From: Anaeramoeba flamelloides
Taxonomy: Eukaryota > Metamonada > Anaeramoebidae
Reading direction: 5' to 3'
DNA: 64,000 bases
Assembly (NCBI GenBank): GCA_027625915.1
Contig: JANTQA010000040.1
Coordinates: forward strand, 1,612,001 to 1,676,000
The number at the start of each line of letters is the position of its first letter. The stretch's first letter is position 1. This document shows positions 12,056 through 60,153 of this stretch, piece after piece. Under the pieces are notes generated by a model, which had not been told where the DNA came from, did not search any database, and worked only from the letters and a program-made list of their open reading frames with translations. The translations under genes and the position numbers were made by a program.

Positions 12056-13160
12056 GAATTGTAAACTATGTTTGAAAAAGAATTTAGAAATTGCATTTAA
12101 CCCAGTATCACTATATTAATCACTATATCACTTAAAAAATCACAAATTCAGAATTTGTCACATAAATATATCAGAATTTAAAAAAAAAATGGAAATTCTT
12201 CCAATTATCTTCACCAATTTTTCCATACTTCTTTTTGATATAAACCCCATTCCAAAAATTTGGACACACCCAAAATCAAGAATAGACAAAAAATCTCAAT
12301 TTACTATATTTTTAGAAAGGTAATATAAAAACACTTTTAAGTTGCCAAGTATTAATGATTTTATAAGTAATCATTTTTTATCCAAATAAAAGAAAAAAAT
12401 ATCAAACCAAAAATTAAAAAATCAAGATGTGTTCTAAAAAAATGATAAAGTGAATAAAAAAGTGTATTTATAAATTTGTAAAAAATTTCACCAACAAATG
12501 TTGATCGATCAAATGATAAGATACCATGGACTAAGTGTATGTGATTTTTTTATTATATAAACTCATTAACTTTAACAATCTATCAATCATTGAAAAAAAT
12601 CCAGATCTAACAAAATAGATTACATAACGGGAAAAAAGAATATGAAAACAAAACAAAAAATCCAAAAAATGAAATAGTTTTAAAATCAAAATTATTTCCA
12701 AATCAAATGGAAATTCTGGTATTGTTATTCTTTTAACTGTTTAAACTGTGTCCAAATTTTTTTAATTTAGTTTATTTACGATTTCCATGGAGTGATAAAG
12801 ATTTTACGTACTTGGGCCAATATAAAAAAAATTTTTAAGAGTTTTTGATACTTTTCAAATCATAACTGTGCCTTTTCTACTTTTGGATTACCAAGAATTT
12901 TATTGGATTCCTTTCCCATGTTAATTTCCATTTATATAGTTAATTGGTAGGGTAAGTTCTAAAATGTTGAAAATTAGCAAATTCAATATTTTCCATTTTT
13001 TTATATTACATTTTCATAAAAAAATTAAGAAAAATAAACTTATTTTGATATTTTTATTTTATCGGATTTGTCTAAGAATAATTAATTCAATCCATTTGGA
13101 GGTAAAAGTAAAAAAAAAATGAAAATGTAACATATTTTTTATTTATTTTGAAGGGGGGAA
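12056..13160. other. AT-rich sequence with no gene seen
   Basis: No open frame of interest and no recognised repeat. The stretch 12780-12960 is slightly less A/T-dense but stops occur in all frames. Confidence 0.4.
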
Positions 13161-13164
13161 ACTA

Positions 13165-13500
13165 GTTTACTCTTACATCCGTTAGGTTTTTTTAATTCAA
13201 AAGATTAGAATAAAATCTTTGATTTTACTCAATTCTTTTAAATTCTGGAAAAGCGTGGTTAGGTTTTCTTGAGTTTTCTGTTTATTTGTGAAGTGTTCTA
13301 GGTTTTTTTTTACTTTAGAAATAAACCGAAAATTTATTAAAATTTTCGGTTTATTTCTAAAGTAAAAACAACCTAACGAAAATCGATAGATTTCACAAAT
13401 AACATTGAAAACCTCAAGAAAACCTTCGTTAGGTTTTTTTTAATTTTAGAAATTAAAAAAAACCAAGGCACTCTACGGCACTTGACGGCACTATACGAGA
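13165..13500. repeat. Nested palindrome cluster with GGCACTTGACGGCACT spacer (copy A)
   Basis: An inner, nearly perfect palindrome spans 13306-13368, with 29-bp arms containing TTTAGAAATAAACCGAAAAT. It sits inside an outer, imperfect pair of arms (GTTAGGTTTTCTTGAG on both sides). A further CAGAATT/CTTTGATTTTACTCAATT-type arm lies to the left. The right edge reads GGCACTCTACGGCACTTGAC and so on. The same building blocks recur at 30555-30839, 54430-54530 and 57620-58320. It abuts a LINE remnant at 13510-13900. Confidence 0.75.
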
Positions 13501-13509
13501 TGACTGTTT

Positions 13510-13900
13510 GTTGATATTATTATTATATCTGATAATTTTTAAATATTCTTGACCTTTCCATCCAGAACTATTTATAATAAACTTTTGTCTAAAGTTTTAA
13601 ATCTGCATTTAATAATTTTAAATTTTCGATTTCCCAATTGATATTTCCATTATCTTTTTTCTTGGAAAATGTTAATTGTTGTGAAATTTGATCAAACCCT
13701 AGTATTTCTAATTTTTTTTTGAGTTTATATCTTCTTTTGTAAATTGATATTCTGGCTTGATCAAGTTGAGCTTCAGTTTTATAAATTATTCTTGGAGAGT
13801 GTGGATTAATTTTTAAAAATTATGTTACTTTTTTATTTATCCAAAGATCTATCGAGTCAAAATATTTTTGATTTAGATTAAAAATTAAAAGTCCATAAAA
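13510..13900 (-). pseudogene. LINE retrotransposon fragment, post-RT region
   Basis: The minus strand encodes a broken frame with IIYKTEAQLDQARISIYKRR followed by YKLKKKLEILGFDQ. It aligns by eye with IYKTEFKIENMTISVNKKKF and KLKNKL from the better-preserved LINE at 30124-32000, so both come from one family. Stops and frameshifts show it is dead. The palindrome cluster at 13165-13500 lies just downstream of this fragment, much as in the other copy. Confidence 0.5.
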
Positions 13901-29900: not shown

Positions 29901-30123
29901 GAAAAATATAATATATATATTATTACAATTATAATACTGTTGGATTATAATTTAAAAAAAAATGAAGTTTATCTCAAAAGTTAAAGAAGGAAAAGACAAA
30001 TTAACAGAGACAAGTTATGCTTATGAATGATTGATGAGGGTATTGTGTTTTTTTCTTCGAATTATGATGAAAAACTATTTGTGGAATTCCAAAAAAAAAT
30101 TTTTATTTATTTTTTTTTTTTTT

Positions 30124-32000
30124 TTTTATTATTGAAGAAGTGTAATTTACACTCTAGTAACCCTTAGACTTAAATTCCATTTCATAAATTTAAGCGTAAA
30201 ATCATAGATTTCACGATTATTAATTAATGAAAATAGTTTCAAACTGTCTTGATTTGAAATTAGTTCATTAAGATTTATTTTTTTTAATTTGTTATAAAAT
30301 ATTAATCTATCTTTTTCATAGGAAGGACAGACCCATAAAAAATGATCAATATTTTCTATAATTTCCTTTTGTTCATATTTTGAACATAAAGGGTAATATT
30401 TATTTGAATTTTTATAGATTACATAGTAATATCTATTTAAGCAGTTTGTAAACGATCTGAATTTTAGAATTGTTGAACTTGACGGATAACTTAAATATTT
30501 TTGAGTTTTAAATAAATAATTTTGATTTTTAATTATTGTAAAATAATTTTGTGGAGTGTCGTCAAGTGCCGTCAAGTGCCTAGGTTTTCCAGAATTCAAA
30601 AGAATAGAGTAAAATCAAAGATTTAACTCGATTCTTTTGAATTTTGGAAAACCTAACTAAAAGTGTCGTCAAGTGCCTAGCTTTTCCAGAATTCAAAAGA
30701 ATGGAGAAAAATCAAAGATTTTACTCAATTCTTCTGAATTCTGGAAAAGCTAACGGCGGTTTTTTTAAATTTGAGAAATAAAAATAAAAACTCAAAAATT
30801 TTCTAATTATTTCTCAAATTGAAAAAAACCTAACGACACTTTCAACTTTTGGAATTCAGCAATTCATTGAATGTTTACTTATATATTTCATTTTTTAATT
30901 CTTTTAAATCTTTTGAATACCAGTTGATTTTATTTTTTATTCTTTGATTAAATTTTATTAATTTTTCTAAATAAGGAAGAGATAAATTTCCTAATTTATT
31001 TTTTAATTTAAATTTCTTTTTATTTACTGAAATTGTCATATTTTCAATTTTAAATTCTGTTTTGTAAATAAGAATTTGTGTATTTCTGTTTATTTTACAT
31101 ATTTCAGTAATACATGAATTAGTCAAAGAATTTAAATAATTTATCGTTTTTATTTCAGAATTAAAAATTTCTAATCCATATGTTAATTGACTTAAAAATT
31201 AGATTATTTAAATCTTTTATATTAAACTATTATTCAGAGAATTGTTATTGAATAATTGTTTGCAGTTATTATATGTTTCTTTAGATTTTTTTAAATTATA
31301 AACTATATGTGTAATTTTATCTAAATAAATACCCAAATATTTAATTTTCTTTAAATCTTTTGATATAACTGTTTTATCTTTATTTGGTTTTAATCCAAAT
31401 TGAATAATAATTTCATATATTGAATTTAATTTTCGGTTTATTTGAATTTTATTTCCTTTTATAATTAGGATTAAATCATCTGCAAACATTTGACAATGAT
31501 TTGTTAATGGTATAATTTTTAATAAAAGAAAATGTGAAATAAGAGCAAATAAAATGGGAGATAAGGGGTCTCCTTGGAATATACCAAGCCCTTCTCCTTG
31601 ATAATATTTTAATAAAAAATTTTTGATAATTTTATTTAGAATAAATATTTTTATTGTTTTTCTTATTATTTTATAATTGATTGAGTCAAAAAATTTTGCT
31701 ATATCAATCATTATAATATAAGTTTTATCATTTTTATTTACATTATCTGATTTTATCTTATTATAAGTATTTAAGAAATTTAAGACTGCAATTCGAGTAT
31801 CATATTTTTTTCGAAATCAAATTGTGATTTATGAATAAATTCCCAACAAGGTTCAATTAGTTTATATAACATTTTTTAAAAATAATCTTGGTAAATTTTG
31901 ATTAATTGAAATTGGCCGATAATTTAAAGCTACTCCTTCATTTCCTTTTTTATGAATAAATAAAATTGATCTTTTTTTAATATATTCAATAGTATTCTTA
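30124..32000 (-). pseudogene. LINE-type non-LTR retrotransposon relic (reverse transcriptase)
   Basis: Reading the minus strand, fragments follow the order of a non-LTR reverse transcriptase. KKGNEGVALNYRPISI is at about 31905-31960 and MIDIAKFFDSINYKIIRKTI at 31655-31711. GIFQGDPLSPILFALISHFL comes next, and the catalytic box MFADDLIL is at about 31476-31490. KYLGIYLDKI and a thumb/linker region (30875-31126) follow. After a palindrome cluster (30555-30839) comes a C-terminal Cys/His motif, C-X(n)-H-X4-5-C, in YPLCSKY...IDHFLWVCPSYEKD. That is the usual tail of LINE ORF2 proteins. The two RT aspartates are intact, but frameshifts and stops (for example around 31800 and 31200) and a missing 5' end (no endonuclease seen) make it inactive. 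Confidence 0.85.
30555..30839. repeat. Three stacked palindromes inserted in the LINE relic (copy B)
   Basis: Three consecutive hairpins occur. The first (about 30580-30656) has arms TAGGTTTTCCAGAATTCAAA and onward. The second (about 30677-30753) has arms TAGCTTTTCCAGAATTCAAA; compensating G/C changes in both arms keep the pairing. The third (about 30756-30833) has arms built on TTTGAGAAATAAAAAT versus ATTATTTCTCAAATT. Spacers read GTGTCGTCAAGTGCC. The outer ends are inverted: AGTGTCGT at the left, ACGACACT at the right. Minus-strand LINE coding sequence is present on both sides. Confidence 0.85.
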
Positions 32001-32939
32001 GTAGGGTTAATTAACCAATTATTTTAGATTTTTTAAATTGTAATAAGATATTTTTTATAATTTTGATTTTCAATTGGATTTAAAAATTTTTATTCTTTAA
32101 TGTTTTAAAAAAGTAATTTTCTGGTTTTCAAAAAATGAAAAAAAAATGCAAAACAAATTTGAAAAATTTTTTTAAACAAATTGTTTGGTCTTTTACACAA
32201 GAATAATTATAATAATTTAAATCATTTTTAGAATAAAAAAATTGGTTTTAAATTTTTGAGATCATATTACTCAATTCCCAAATATCTTTCAAGAAAATTT
32301 TATTGTGAAAAATAAAATTTCATCTTGGAACAAAAACACAGTTTCTAAGTAAAATTTGTAAATGACTTTAAAACTTTTAATAGTTGTAACTATCTTTTTA
32401 AAATCAATATAAATATTTTTCAATTGGTTGAATAAATGATTTTTTTTGGTTAACCAAAAGATTTATCTCAAAAAAAGAAAAAAAATCTTTAGATTAATAT
32501 TCCTTGCAACAAAAACTTTTGGTATTGTGTAATAATTATGAAAATGGTAATAAACAAGGTAAAAATATTTTAATAATGCAAGTAATAAAATCAATTGAAT
32601 TTAAATGTTTTCTTTTTTAAGAAAAAATGAAAAAAAAAATTTGAACTCACTTAAAAAAATTATCTATTCTGATTTTATGTATTAGATCAGAATTTTTTGA
32701 CACTTTGAATCTCCAAAATTTGTAATTAGAGAATATCACCAATAAAATAAATTAAAATTTTGACTTGTTGTTGTAGAGTACTGATCTCTTAATAACCTTT
32801 CAAAAAAAAAATTTTTTTAAAAAAAGTTTTTCAAAGCATTCCAGTGGTAAAATGAAAAACAATAAGTTGCTAAAATCCTATTTTTTGGGTTCGTAATGGG
32901 TCAAATTTCTTTTTAAAATCGATTTTTTCATTTCGATAA

Positions 32940-54300: not shown

Positions 54301-56482
54301 AGCTCTTATGGTGAGAAAAATCTAGATAAGTAGCAACAAATAATAAAAAATATTTGTAAATCAACAATATTCAAAATAAGAAAAATAATATAAAAATTTG
54401 GGCACTTTGTGCACCACTCTTTGAGTTCCGTGTCTAGGTTTTTTTTCAATTCAAAAGAATTGAGTAAAACCAAAGATTTTACTCCATTACTTTGAATTGA
54501 AAAAAAAAAAAAAACTAACAACAGGGTTATCACATTATTAATCACAGCCCGTGTAAAATCTTATTTTTTTTACTCGTTTATTACCCCTCTTGTTGATATG
54601 AAAGTTTATAATTTTATTTTAATTATTATTTTTATTTACAAAATTTTTAGATTTTCAAATCAAAGCAATGGCTAAAAAAAACTAATGGTGTTTTTTTAAA
54701 AAATCTTTTTTTTATTCTTGTATTTTTCTTCTTTTATTTTGATAATTTTTTATTTACTTATTCACATCTTTTAATAAAATAATATTATTTTTTTCTCAAA
54801 AACTGGATGTTAGTGTAACAAAAATTTTGAATAGGAGTTTATATTCAAAAGTTTAATAGCTTTTCAAAAAAAAACACCCGGTTTGATTAATTAAAAATGA
54901 TTGGCCTAAATATTTTTATTTCTAAATTTTGCACTTGGTTAATTTTATAATAATAATAATTAAATAATTATTACCATGATTGATAATTATCATTAAAACA
55001 TATTTTATGATATTCGAATAAATTCTCATCCATATCCTCTATGCTCTCAGAACCATCCAGTTCTTCTATATCAGTTTGTAAATCATTTATGGTTTTAGTT
55101 TCATTAATTTCAATTTCGCAATAATTTTCATAAACGAACTTGTTTTATTTTTTGTTTCAATTGAAAAAATTTTAATTTGTTAAATTAATTTAATAAGATA
55201 TCTTTTTATTTAAGAGTTTTCATCAATCGCTAATAGTCCTTCTTCATAATCTTTTTCTTTTTCAAAAGTATTTAATTTAAAAAGATTGATCAATTTCAAA
55301 AGTTTTCAATTAAAAATTAAAAAAAATATTATGTTTTATTTCATGTGATTTTATTTTATTTCATTATTTTTTTTTTATAAAAAAAAAAAAAAAGCTGGTG
55401 ATTGTGTCGAGTATCGTGATGAATTACTTAAACTTGGTGTTTTTGACAAATTTTTGGAGATCATTCAAACCACAACAACAAAATCAATTATACTAAATTT
55501 AATTTGGGCATTATCAAATTGTGTTCGTAAAACACCATATCCCCCACTAACAATTGTAAAAACATTTTTTCTTTCAATTTTTTTATTTTTATTTATATTC
55601 TTTGAAAAAAATTCACAATATTTTTCGAATTGTTGCTCATAAAATTAACTTTTTTATCGAATTATCTTTATTTTTTAGACCAAATATGCATTTCCAATTT
55701 ATTACAAATTAATTCAACATGACGATTATGACATTAAAATCAAAGGCTTTTGGGGGTTAAATTATCTCTCAAATGGCGAATATGATAATATACAATTATT
55801 GATCGACACCGATATTTTACCCATCATTCTTGAAAATTTGCAAAAAAAAATACCCGAGATAAGAATACCATCACTTCGAATTTTGGGAAATGTTACAAGC
55901 GGCAATGAAGAACATACCCAAACATTCATTGATGAGGGTGGGATTTTAGTACTGAAGCATTATTTTAATCATGGTAACCCACAATACCGGAAAGAAGCGT
56001 GCTGGACGATTTCAAACGTATGTGCAGGCACAGTTTCGCAAATTTATGAAGTCATTGAAAATGACTATGTTAGCGATTTGATTGAGATTATTACAAACGA
56101 TCACCCCAGTATAAAAAAGGAAGCTTGCTTTGCGCTAACTAATATCATTAATTGTGGTGATGTTAGCCAATTAAATATTTTACTTTCAAAGCATATTATC
56201 AAGCCATTATGCTCTCTATTAGACAGCATTGATAATGAAATTGACCACTTGGTCCTTACAGCAATTGAACAAATCCTGCATCAAGATATAAATTCAAATT
56301 ATTATTCAGAATATAACAATGAAGAGGAGAGCTCTTATGCCAAACTCATCGAAAATGTTGGTGGAAAAAAAAAAATTGAAATTTTATCGTATTCGAAAGA
56401 TACACTTATTTCAACAAAGGCTAATACAATTCTGTACAATTTTTTTAATGATGAAGAAGATTATGAATCAGATTCTGATTAA
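48337..56482 (+). CDS. Importin subunit alpha (karyopherin alpha), five exons
   Basis: Join 48337-48534, 48791-48979, 52945-53101, 55395-55555, 55679-56482 (502 aa, TAA stop). Every junction is GT-AG and in phase. Exon 1 encodes a basic importin-beta-binding (IBB) segment (RKKKFKTKLTRHESTNKRKN and KKEDLIRKKRNI). Exons 2-5 encode armadillo repeats with the family phrases LRKMVCGKKDPPIDELIESN, ESAWVLSNIASGNETQT, DQSIWALGNIAGDCVEYRD, IWALSNCVRKTPYPP, RILGNVTSGNEEHTQ and KEACWTISNVCAG. The W and N residues of the NLS-binding groove are present in several repeats, though repeat 5 has GFWGLNYLSNG with Asn displaced. The acidic tail (EDYESDSD) is typical. It carries classical-NLS cargo through nuclear pores with importin beta. 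A TGA lies directly before the ATG in frame, supporting this start. Introns 2 (3,965 nt) and 3 (2,293 nt) are long and contain mobile elements. Confidence 0.97.
49614..50070. mobile_element. Mariner-type MITE in importin alpha intron 2 (family M, copy 2)
   Basis: The left end reads GTGAAAAAAAGTGAAACAGG and the right end is the inverse of CACTGTAGTGGAAAAAAAGT with GAAACAGGG following. The interior matches copy 1 at 42801-43223 (for example GAACATTAATAGAAACTGAA near the left end). ACTGT/ACAGT at the extreme ends is typical of Tc1/mariner termini. No coding potential; the frame 49383-49649 (-) partly overlaps its left edge and is not a gene. Confidence 0.8.
50767..52016. mobile_element. 1.25-kb inverted-repeat DNA transposon (copy 2), in importin alpha intron 2
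   Basis: Homologous along its whole length to 34456-35692 in the same orientation. Left end GGATCTTTGATGATAACATA and right end GATATCATCAAAACCTC, each flanked by TA. The ATCGCGAT-type arrays are at about 50800-50880 and 51815-51970. Numerous point differences and small indels separate the copies, so they are not recent duplicates of each other. The frames 50888-51100 and 51283-51495 (-) are not conserved in copy 1 and are not genes. Confidence 0.85.
53382..53928. repeat. Segment with inverted TTTCAGTCAAAG ends in importin alpha intron 3
   Basis: Bounded by TTTTTCAGTCAAAGGGGTAC and the inverse of TTTCAGTCAAAGTTGGATC. Between them the + strand reads TNNSFANFSFIARPRDTWTK, then HVILRLLK, a stop, SGNDCREIIFISIGILFGSS and IGDQNEHCCFFQLDT. 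This is much less biased than the surroundings and looks like a decayed coding sequence. Family not recognised. Compare 35834-36370. Confidence 0.4.
54430..54530. repeat. Single palindrome of the GTGTCTAGG family (copy C)
   Basis: Arms CAATTCAAAAGAATTGAGTA and TACTCCATTACTTTGAATTG surround CCAAAGA; the left edge GTGTCTAGGTTTTTTTT and the right edge AAAAAAACTAACAACAGGG follow the family plan. It lies in importin alpha intron 3. Confidence 0.7.
54955..55312 (-). pseudogene. Decayed coding fragments on the minus strand within importin alpha intron 3
   Basis: Two short minus-strand frames have gene-like composition. One reads LFKLNTFEKEKDYEEGLLAI plus DENS and a stop. The other reads FVYENYCEIEINETKTINDL, then TDIEELDGSESIEDMDENLF and EYHKICFNDNYQSW and a stop. 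No donor lies between them, so they do not splice. They may be the tail of an old transposon protein or a gene fragment. Family not recognised. Confidence 0.35.
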
Positions 56483-57619: not shown

Positions 57620-58325
57620 TTAATTTCCTCTTATATCGGTTAGGTTTTCTTGAGTTTTCTGTTTTATTCGTTAAGTGTTCTAGGTTTTTTTGAGGTTTTC
57701 AATTTTATTTGTGAAAGTGTTCATTAGGTTTTTTTGACTTTTTGAAATAAATAGAAAACTCAAAAAAACCTGACGAAAATCTATATATTTTCCCAATAAA
57801 ATAGAAAACTCAAAAAAAAATTAGAAAACTTAATGAATAAAGAAGAAAACTCAAGAAGTCCGCCATTAGGTTTTCCAGAATTTAAAAGAATTGAGTTAAA
57901 TCTTTGATTTTACTCTATTTTTTTGAATTCTGGTAAACCAAGACACTCTAAGGCACTTGACGGACACTTTCGTTAGATTTTCCATAATTTAAAAGAATTG
58001 AGTTAAATCTTTGATTTTACTCTATTCTTTTAAAGTCTGGAAAACCTAGGCACTTGATGGCACTTCCGTTAGGTTTTTTTACTTATTGGAATGAAAAGAA
58101 AATTTATTAAATTTTCTTTATATTTCTTAAATTCCAAGAAAAAATCATTTATTTTTTCCTGAATTCAAAAGAATTGAGTGAAATCTTTGAATTCACACAA
58201 TTCATTTAAATTTTGGAAAAGAGCCTTTATGTTTTCATAATATTTTCAGTTTATTTTTAACATTAATAGATTTTACAAAAAAAAAAAGAAAACTTCAAAA
58301 AAAACCTCGGCTCTCTTCGGCACTC
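57620..58325. repeat. Large palindrome cluster (copy D)
   Basis: At least four palindromes in series use the family arms. TTAGGTTTTTTTGA with an inner GAAATAAATAGAAAACTC segment comes first (about 57640-57850). Then come two CCAGAATT/CCATAATTTAAAAGAATTGAGT hairpins (about 57875-57940 and 57977-58050), and then a TTGGAATGAAAAGAAAATTT hairpin (about 58085-58135). Spacers read GGCACTTGACGGACACTT and GGCACTTGATGGCACTT. Its left edge (GGGAAATTAATTTCCTCTTA) resembles that of copy A at about 13155 (GGGGAAACTAGTTTACTCTTA). No gene inside. Confidence 0.8.
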
Positions 58326-59313: not shown

Positions 59314-60153
59314 ATGTCATCAAAAAAGAAAGATTTTTCACCAAACACAAAGCTAAAGGTCAACTCTAAAGTCAACATTCCGGATTTATTAAGTGTTGCG
59401 CTTCTAAACCTATCTCAGCCCGATTTTGAAAGTCTAACTGTTGAAGCTACTGGATCAGCAATCTGCAGGGCTGTCGATCTTTCTGAGGCGATCAAACAAT
59501 CAAAACCAAAAGTTGGTTATAAGGTCGTAATCAAAAGTATTAAACATCAAAAAAACAACTACATCTCTTATTCAAAAAAAAGATCAATCATTTCGCTTAT
59601 TCAAATCATTTTTTCGGGTGAAAGAATCCCAAAAAAGATCTTGAAAAAAAAACAAAAAAAAAAGGAAAAAGTTAACCAATCAAGCGAAAACGAAGAAGAC
59701 GAAGAAAACGAAGACAGTAATGAAACCAACAAAGAAGATGAGTTAAATAGTGGTGACTCAAATGATCAAGAAGATCAATCTTCTGAATCAGAAACCAACA
59801 AAACTTCTCAAAGAGAGAAAAAGAAAAAAAAAAAAAAAAAAATTGTAGTTAATGAATTTATTAATAAAAAAAAAAAATTTGTTTCCAGTTATCAACAAAC
59901 AAGGGGCAGAGGTTTTGGTAGAGGCCGGAGAGTAGCTAGTGGTAGGGGCAGAGGCAGGGGTTTTGGCGGAGGATATAATAGAGGATTCAATAGAGGTAGA
60001 GGAAGAAATTATAATTCTTATCAACAAAATCAATATTATTATGGATTAAGCACAAACAACGAAGGGTACAATAATTATAATGACTTTAACACAGAACGTC
60101 GTCACTATAATTACCCCTTTTGGCAACAACAAGAGGAAGAATATTATTATTAA
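59314..60153 (+). CDS. Alba-domain protein with acidic linker and RGG repeats
   Basis: Single-exon gene, 279 aa, TAA stop. Residues about 18-105 match the Alba fold: VNIPDLLSVALLNLSQPDFE, then SLTVEATGSAICRAVDLSEA, which carries the family's G.AI.RAV core, then KVVIKSIKHQ. Alba proteins bind RNA and DNA; in eukaryotes this group includes the Rpp20/Rpp25 subunits of RNase P/MRP and longer RGG-tailed RNA-binding forms. An acidic Glu/Asp/Ser/Asn linker (about 115-165) and a poly-Lys stretch follow. Next is an Arg/Gly region (RGRGFGRGRR, then GRGRGRGFGGGYNRGFNRGR) and a Tyr/Asn/Gln-rich tail ending EEEYYY. The long RGG form with a disordered tail suggests an mRNA-binding or RNP-granule protein; that is inference. 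Frames on the opposite strand are shadows. Confidence 0.88.
   Translation: MSSKKKDFSPNTKLKVNSKVNIPDLLSVALLNLSQPDFESLTVEATGSAICRAVDLSEAIKQSKPKVGYKVVIKSIKHQKNNYISYSKKRSIISLIQIIFSGERIPKKILKKKQKKKEKVNQSSENEEDEENEDSNETNKEDELNSGDSNDQEDQSSESETNKTSQREKKKKKKKKIVVNEFINKKKKFVSSYQQTRGRGFGRGRRVASGRGRGRGFGGGYNRGFNRGRGRNYNSYQQNQYYYGLSTNNEGYNNYNDFNTERRHYNYPFWQQQEEEYYY

Follow-up and report, generated by a model that had tools for sequence, protein, structure and literature searches.

Palindromic hairpin cassettes at two fixed positions in the coding sequence of Anaeramoeba flamelloides LINEs

The window, a stretch of 64,000 nucleotides, comprises positions 1612001-1676000 of one contig in the 254-Mb, 76-contig Anaeramoeba flamelloides assembly, which was also the genome searched. 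Its GC content is 18-28% (2-kb steps). Two LINE relics on the minus strand, at 13165-13900 (copy 1) and 30124-32000 (copy 2), are accompanied by clusters of palindromes. Copy 2 consists of a LINE reverse transcriptase fragment (RVT_1, E 5e-18; 31217-31711, minus strand), a degraded post-RT region (IYKTE...KLKNKL...; 30858-31199, minus), a C-terminal Cys/His region (CSKYEQKEIIENIDHFLWVCP; 30147-30545, minus) and a 3' stem-loop with A-tail (AGAGTGTAAATTACACTTCTTCAATAATAAAA; 30121-30157, minus). Its open reading frame is broken between the post-RT and Cys/His regions by a hairpin cassette of 287 bp (TGTCGTTAGG ... GACGACACTCCA; 30552-30838, minus, in LINE sense), the boundaries of which were set by eye against 27 empty copies. 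The cassette takes the place of one Val codon, flanked by W-K and Q, in a conserved S-W-K-V motif; this position is referred to as site 1. It contains two type-A hairpins (30581-30655 and 30678-30752), each with 36-nt arms of 92% complementarity, and one type-B hairpin (30758-30830) with 32-nt arms (88%); no strand is assigned to these palindromes. Rfam gave zero matches within the window at the gathering threshold. Below this threshold the copy-2 region yielded near-matches mainly to microRNA-precursor families, which are uninformative because any long hairpin would yield such.

The post-RT segment (IYKTE...KLKNKL-like) was found again in copy 1, as the preliminary description of this DNA had noted. 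Here it belongs to a related LINE family (13510-13900, minus strand) and reads ..NSSGWKGQEYLKIIRYNNNINKQSSR, which aligns with NPSWKVQKYLIITNYDNKINKTQ of P0058. Site 1 is uninterrupted: SGWKGQEYLK in copy 1 corresponds to SWKVQKYL in P0058. A second hairpin array (13175-13498, no strand assigned) starts about 50 bp past this site and is inverted relative to its LINE. No Cys/His region comes after it; a LINE-type 3' end with stem-loop and A-rich tail (13133-13184, minus) follows directly in LINE sense. Thus, the palindromes do not sit at nearly the same place in both copies, as had been described. A third array of nested hairpins (57639-58325, no strand assigned, LINE on the minus strand) lies after ...NTNLPLVIR of a LINE C-terminus and ahead of a 3' stem-loop, and 54424-54507 (no strand assigned) holds one isolated type-A hairpin that is degenerate and has linker-like ends. 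The window also holds an Alba-like ORF with an RG-rich tail (59314-60153), whose Pfam Alba score is below the cut-off.

The window was screened with precisely delimited cassettes from LINE copies elsewhere, and this library matched at 13175-13498, 30551-30842 and 57639-58325. Shorter matches were obtained at 54424-54507 and 32568-32637, the latter of which is AT-rich and may have arisen by chance. The main arms of the palindromes at both LINE relics measure 32-36 nt and are 88-97% complementary. The palindrome clusters of the window belong to one genome-wide hairpin family, in agreement with the kinship first proposed for the two relics. One hairpin core gave 8,167 genome-wide matches (<=2 mismatches; reversed control 0), a number that counts some hairpins on both strands since the core is partly palindromic. 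The basic unit is a hairpin of ~75 bp, and units are both chained and nested. Inserts at site 1 range from 90 to 569 bp. Those with a single hairpin A measure 90 bp (5 copies), 100-101, 110, 120 and 133 bp, their tail consisting of 0 to ~4 ten-bp units (GGCACTTGAC-type). The cassettes have terminal or whole-length inverted repeats and no coding capacity; the longest ATG frame is <=31 aa in 35/36 cassettes and 88 aa in one. Among 119 distinct hairpin-A units, arm pairing amounted to 90.7% compared with 90.1% in shuffles, and 57 double changes were counted against a shuffle mean of 36 and a maximum of 52. This little covariation is too weak for arguing RNA-level selection on the arms. Two loci on C12 (L014 and L025, ~14 kb apart) share 3.3-kb stretches that are 99% identical, hairpin array included, a recent duplication. 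At two other loci (L044, 255-672; L051, 476-684) the A-tails of intact-looking LINE copies end <= ~30 bp from hairpin arrays, an arrangement that would fit LINE integration into T-rich hairpin arms.

Genome searches used the RT and Cys/His proteins encoded by the window LINE, and 150 hits each were scored of 4,696 and 9,511 candidates, respectively. The best 30 of the 150 scored RT hits were examined as RT loci. Alignment across the RT-to-CCHC region, as suggested in the preliminary description, revealed that empty sites exist: 27 of the 30 loci are uninterrupted between the post-RT and Cys/His regions. The other three (L031, which is the window copy, L042 and L054) carry an array at the identical base. 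These are the only arrays inside a LINE copy among the 30 RT loci; a fourth flagged locus (L051) was excluded since its array belongs to a neighbouring relic. L051 itself encodes a 592-aa ORF through both domains, with SWKV present and without cassette. An environmental relative (48% identity) has likewise kept SWKV as well as the C-terminal IRA. The AlphaFold model of the 592-aa ORF has a pLDDT <50 from residue 441 onward and is therefore silent on the place of site 1 in the protein. The preliminary description had offered two readings. The first, in which the hairpins would belong to the regular make-up of the LINE, is rejected in view of the uninterrupted loci, 251 genome matches to the empty site and the cassette-free ORF. 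Insertion at a hotspot, the other reading, was upheld beyond what was proposed, with one fixed nucleotide position in at least four LINE lineages. Independent insertion had been expected to leave both intact cassette-free copies and scattered insertion points; the former exist, the latter did not appear in the 30 RT loci.

The empty site 1 reads ..TTGGAAR-GTN-CAAAA.. (S W K V Q), where GTN is GTC, GTG or GTA by lineage. The filled site reads ..TTGGAAR-TGTCGTTAGG(hairpins)..GACACTCCA-CAAAA... The filled left junction had 285 genome matches (2 in the reversed-pattern control), a count that exceeds chance by far; the control for the 251 empty matches gave 1. Patterns of lineage 4 (<=2 mismatches) gave 184 matches to the empty state, 84 of them free of mismatches, and 152 to the filled state, of which 20 are exact, with controls at 0. 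These counts overlap the 285 and 251 sets, include near-matches of other lineages and are not additive, and the empty state of lineage 4 is known from pattern matches alone. From the exact matches listed, 40 filled and 20 empty places were sampled, 19 of the first 20 filled places having been chosen for an adjoining Cys/His hit. Of 42 exact filled left junctions, five lacked a recognisable LINE to the right and one matched poorly, so that 36 were measured. In these 36 the right end, which is independent of the selection, is ACACTCCA before CAAAA, exact in 22/36 and with <=1 mismatch in 31/36. Further site-1 cassettes were recognised by DNA similarity with the left junction unused (L001, L002, L003, L004, L008, L016, L022, L029 and L030).

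The junctions at site 1 are AAR|TGTC and CCA|CAA, and lineage-specific bases are kept at -1 and +6; L054 and L012, for instance, have AAA instead of AAG 1 bp left of the insert. The reading frame of the filled site is AAR TGT CGT TAG (K C R stop), and insert length is divisible by 3 in 13/36, the chance level. A clean pre-insertion or excised form was sought with a single exact pattern (TGT, 0-12 nt, CCACAAAA), which had 0 matches. This leaves the GTN loss seen in all lineages unexplained and counts against an insertion reading. A clean 2-bp duplication at site 1 was rejected, as it would leave empty copies reading K-C-P-Q, for which there were 0 matches. A spliceosomal intron was dismissed as well: the right end has no AG and, in lineage 2, the left end no GT.

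Both states, empty and filled, are present in four LINE lineages. A tree was built from 58 copies (27 filled, 31 empty) after exclusion of 12/70 rows with truncated or odd flanks (L063, L064, L066, L069, L073, L078, L088, L096, L097, L110, L111 and L113). It needs 8 state changes, at least 6 of them on well-supported branches. A single filled clade was rejected (lnL difference 260.7, p_AU 1.29e-48), and with it one insertion inherited vertically. Lineage 4 is filled in 8/9 tree copies. One lineage-1 subclade is filled in 10/10 sampled copies, but its cassettes are of unlike type (A, C, nested or chained), a pattern resembling exchange more than insertion. Among pairs of A-first cassettes, 25/325 share >=97% identity across their first 80 bp. 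In 15 of these 25 pairs both flanks are <90% identical; 9/15 include a copy whose left flank is truncated or odd (L064, L073, L078, L096) and 6/15 do not. Near-identical cassettes thus occur in diverged lineages, and close copies hold unlike cassettes.

Left and right flanks were each assigned to one of the four lineages. The two assignments agreed in 21/21 confident filled copies (17/17 of the non-reference ones) and in 27/27 confident empty copies (7/7 of the non-reference ones). Disagreement was found in 7 of 22 unsure rows (6/15 filled, 1/7 empty; 3 of the 7 truncated), and by eye a chimaeric structure spanning the cassette is suggested for L078 and L092. Also by eye, LINE homology ends ~15-35 bp left of the cassette in L069, L088, L096 and L097 and further out in L066; the empty copies L110 and L111 have likewise lost left LINE homology. 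We read the filled copies with lost left flank as 5'-truncated retrocopies, in which the cassette was part of the LINE RNA and travelled with it. Codon changes between filled and empty groups (1E/1F, 2 synonymous and 2 non-synonymous; 3E/3F, 4 and 0) are too few to decide the functionality of filled LINEs.

A second position, site 2, lies after I-R near the ORF end (I-R^A). Its empty form is ..GGAATTCGGGCAAATAAGAG.. (L G I R A N K R G Q stop) and its filled form ..GGAATTCGGG|AAGTGCC..CCTAAC|GGCAAATAAGAG.., with a 2-bp direct repeat; the array supplies a new stop (LGIREVPSSA in L148). Filled sites gave 372 matches (<=1 mismatch; control 0), and empty or nearly empty ones 104 matches (exact ends, 0-30 nt gap; control 0), both patterns fitting one 3'-end type only. 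At least one of the 100 listed near-empty places holds an array-like remnant. The third array of the window (57639-58325) is of the site-2 kind because it comes after ..NTNLPLVIR. Cassette-free copies of the first LINE family carry a similar stem-loop and A-tail at their 3' end. The genomic context was surveyed by eye on one contig: of its first 27 exact matches to hairpin A, 20 were used (L061 and L009, already sampled, and 5 close neighbours were omitted). A second LINE family has two of the 20 at its site 1 (L131, L138); 10/20 are either at site 2 or flanked on one or both sides by a LINE-type 3' end, one follows HFLW of a LINE (L126) and 6/20 share a recurrent flank (class III). Thus 19/20 fall into recurrent flank classes, with L123 outside. 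One recurrent flank class (GATAATTATTG...array...GAAAAATCAAAAAAAATATTTTTTCCAATTTA) hosts L009, L011, L018, L125, L128, L132, L133, L135 and L137. The cassettes hold fixed nucleotide positions in LINE coding sequence, at site 1 (S-W-K-V) and at site 2 (after I-R), and at the level of position random nesting is excluded.

The reading we favour, with a probability of about 0.56, is that the cassettes are non-coding, modular palindromic elements which insert site-specifically into conserved LINE coding motifs and are then copied by the LINE. Occupancy would arise through repeated site-specific insertion in trans, the putative actor being a sequence-specific nuclease, a transposase or a retrohoming-type activity. 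A conserved coding motif would open diverged LINE lineages to invasion, and target-primed reverse transcription of the LINE would then multiply the cassette. The near-3' location of site 2 would allow copying even into 5'-truncated LINEs, and half of the 20-locus sample may lie at LINE 3' ends because site-2 arrays survive 5' truncation. Recurrent site-specific insertion together with LINE retrotransposition would explain why the insertion base is fixed, why lineages are mixed and why the flanks agree. The array ends count against this reading, as they differ by site (TGTCGTTAGG..GACACTCCA at site 1, AAGTGCC..CCTAAC at site 2). More tentatively, and with some doubt on our part, the cassettes may represent a new class of hyperparasites that lacks an endonuclease gene, is mutually nested, homes into SWK^V and IR^A, turns over faster than the LINEs diverge and reaches thousands of copies by LINE reverse transcription.

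The main rival, which we regard as unlikely on balance, assumes one or few ancient insertions, after which cassettes spread or were swapped between LINE copies by recombination. Gene conversion or template switching of the reverse transcriptase at hairpins could serve as routes, with the shared cassette ends as homology and thousands of homologous hairpins as possible partners. The identical junctions, including the lost GTN codon, across all lineages fit this proposal, as do the unlike cassettes of the filled lineage-1 subclade, the two possible chimaeras and the discordant loosely typed filled copies. The rejected single filled clade and the zero discordance among the 21 confidently typed filled copies speak against it. 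Moreover, since lineage-specific bases survive at -1 and +6, exchange tracts would have to stop within a few bases of the cassette.

Ordinary MITEs or foldback transposons, inserted at random in many other places and only by chance at a LINE hotspot, would likewise be short, palindromic, of high copy and nested in each other, and the 2-bp direct repeat at site 2 would suit them. This origin is improbable in view of the recurrent flank classes of 19/20 hairpin-A loci (by eye) and the zero scattered positions in the 30 RT loci. Least probable is that the hairpins serve the LINE as a regular functional component, such as a structured RNA or a recoding signal, with the empty copies as deletions. 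Its fixed position, the site-2 arrays adjoining the 3' stem-loop and the codon constraint of the mostly filled lineage 4, which is about that of empty lineages (3E/4F, 28 synonymous and 22 non-synonymous; 1E/2E, 28 and 21), are in its favour. However, the in-frame state is the empty one, with lineage-specific GTC, GTG or GTA at the site itself and intact empty ORFs; the filled frame runs into a stop, insert length follows no multiple of 3, and even lineage 4 has its zero-mismatch empty matches.

MITEs and foldback elements are short, palindromic, nested and present in high copy, and so are the cassettes. The latter differ in strongly favouring two conserved positions of LINE coding sequence, in their modular chains with 10-bp linkers and in the absence of a target duplication at site 1, where a 3-bp codon is replaced (a 2-bp repeat is present at site 2). 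The many dispersed unique sites of such elements did not show up in the context sample (19/20 loci recurrent, by eye, one contig). Homing introns and inteins sit in conserved coding motifs and bring their own nuclease. The cassettes share with them the conserved coding motif, the coexistence of empty and filled alleles and the invasion of diverged host lineages. In contrast, a 90-bp cassette is too small for an endonuclease, 35/36 have no long frame, confidently typed copies have no co-converted flanks, and there is no sign of removal. Group I/II and spliceosomal introns differ from the cassettes, which have no GT..AG ends and no Rfam match at the gathering threshold in the window. R2 targets rDNA, and Tx1L targets the transposon Tx1D, itself a mobile element. 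One fixed target position is common to these and the cassettes and, as for Tx1L/Tx1D, the target is another mobile element; here, however, the inserter is a hairpin array of 90-569 bp and the host a LINE. The byp elements of yeast mitochondria are mobile hairpins inside coding sequence, as are the cassettes; our literature search found no paper on them. The cassettes differ in being nuclear, in residing in a retrotransposon ORF at one fixed position and in giving no evidence of translational bypass. The 10-bp tail steps are only suggestive of a likeness to SINEs or retroposons.

A literature search, which had most subscription papers outside its reach, listed no description of such hairpin cassettes in LINEs. 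A term search of PMC11550330 found neither 'transposable' nor 'retrotranspos'. If the favoured reading is true, a bare hairpin that homes into a retrotransposon, base-exact, in hundreds of copies and in several lineages, would be a new selfish-element lifestyle, namely that of a genetic parasite specialised on other parasites. If recombination is responsible instead, the copies would form an unusually clean record of cassette exchange limited to few bases. With hundreds of empty and filled alleles together, A. flamelloides offers a natural system for testing palindrome insertion and exchange.
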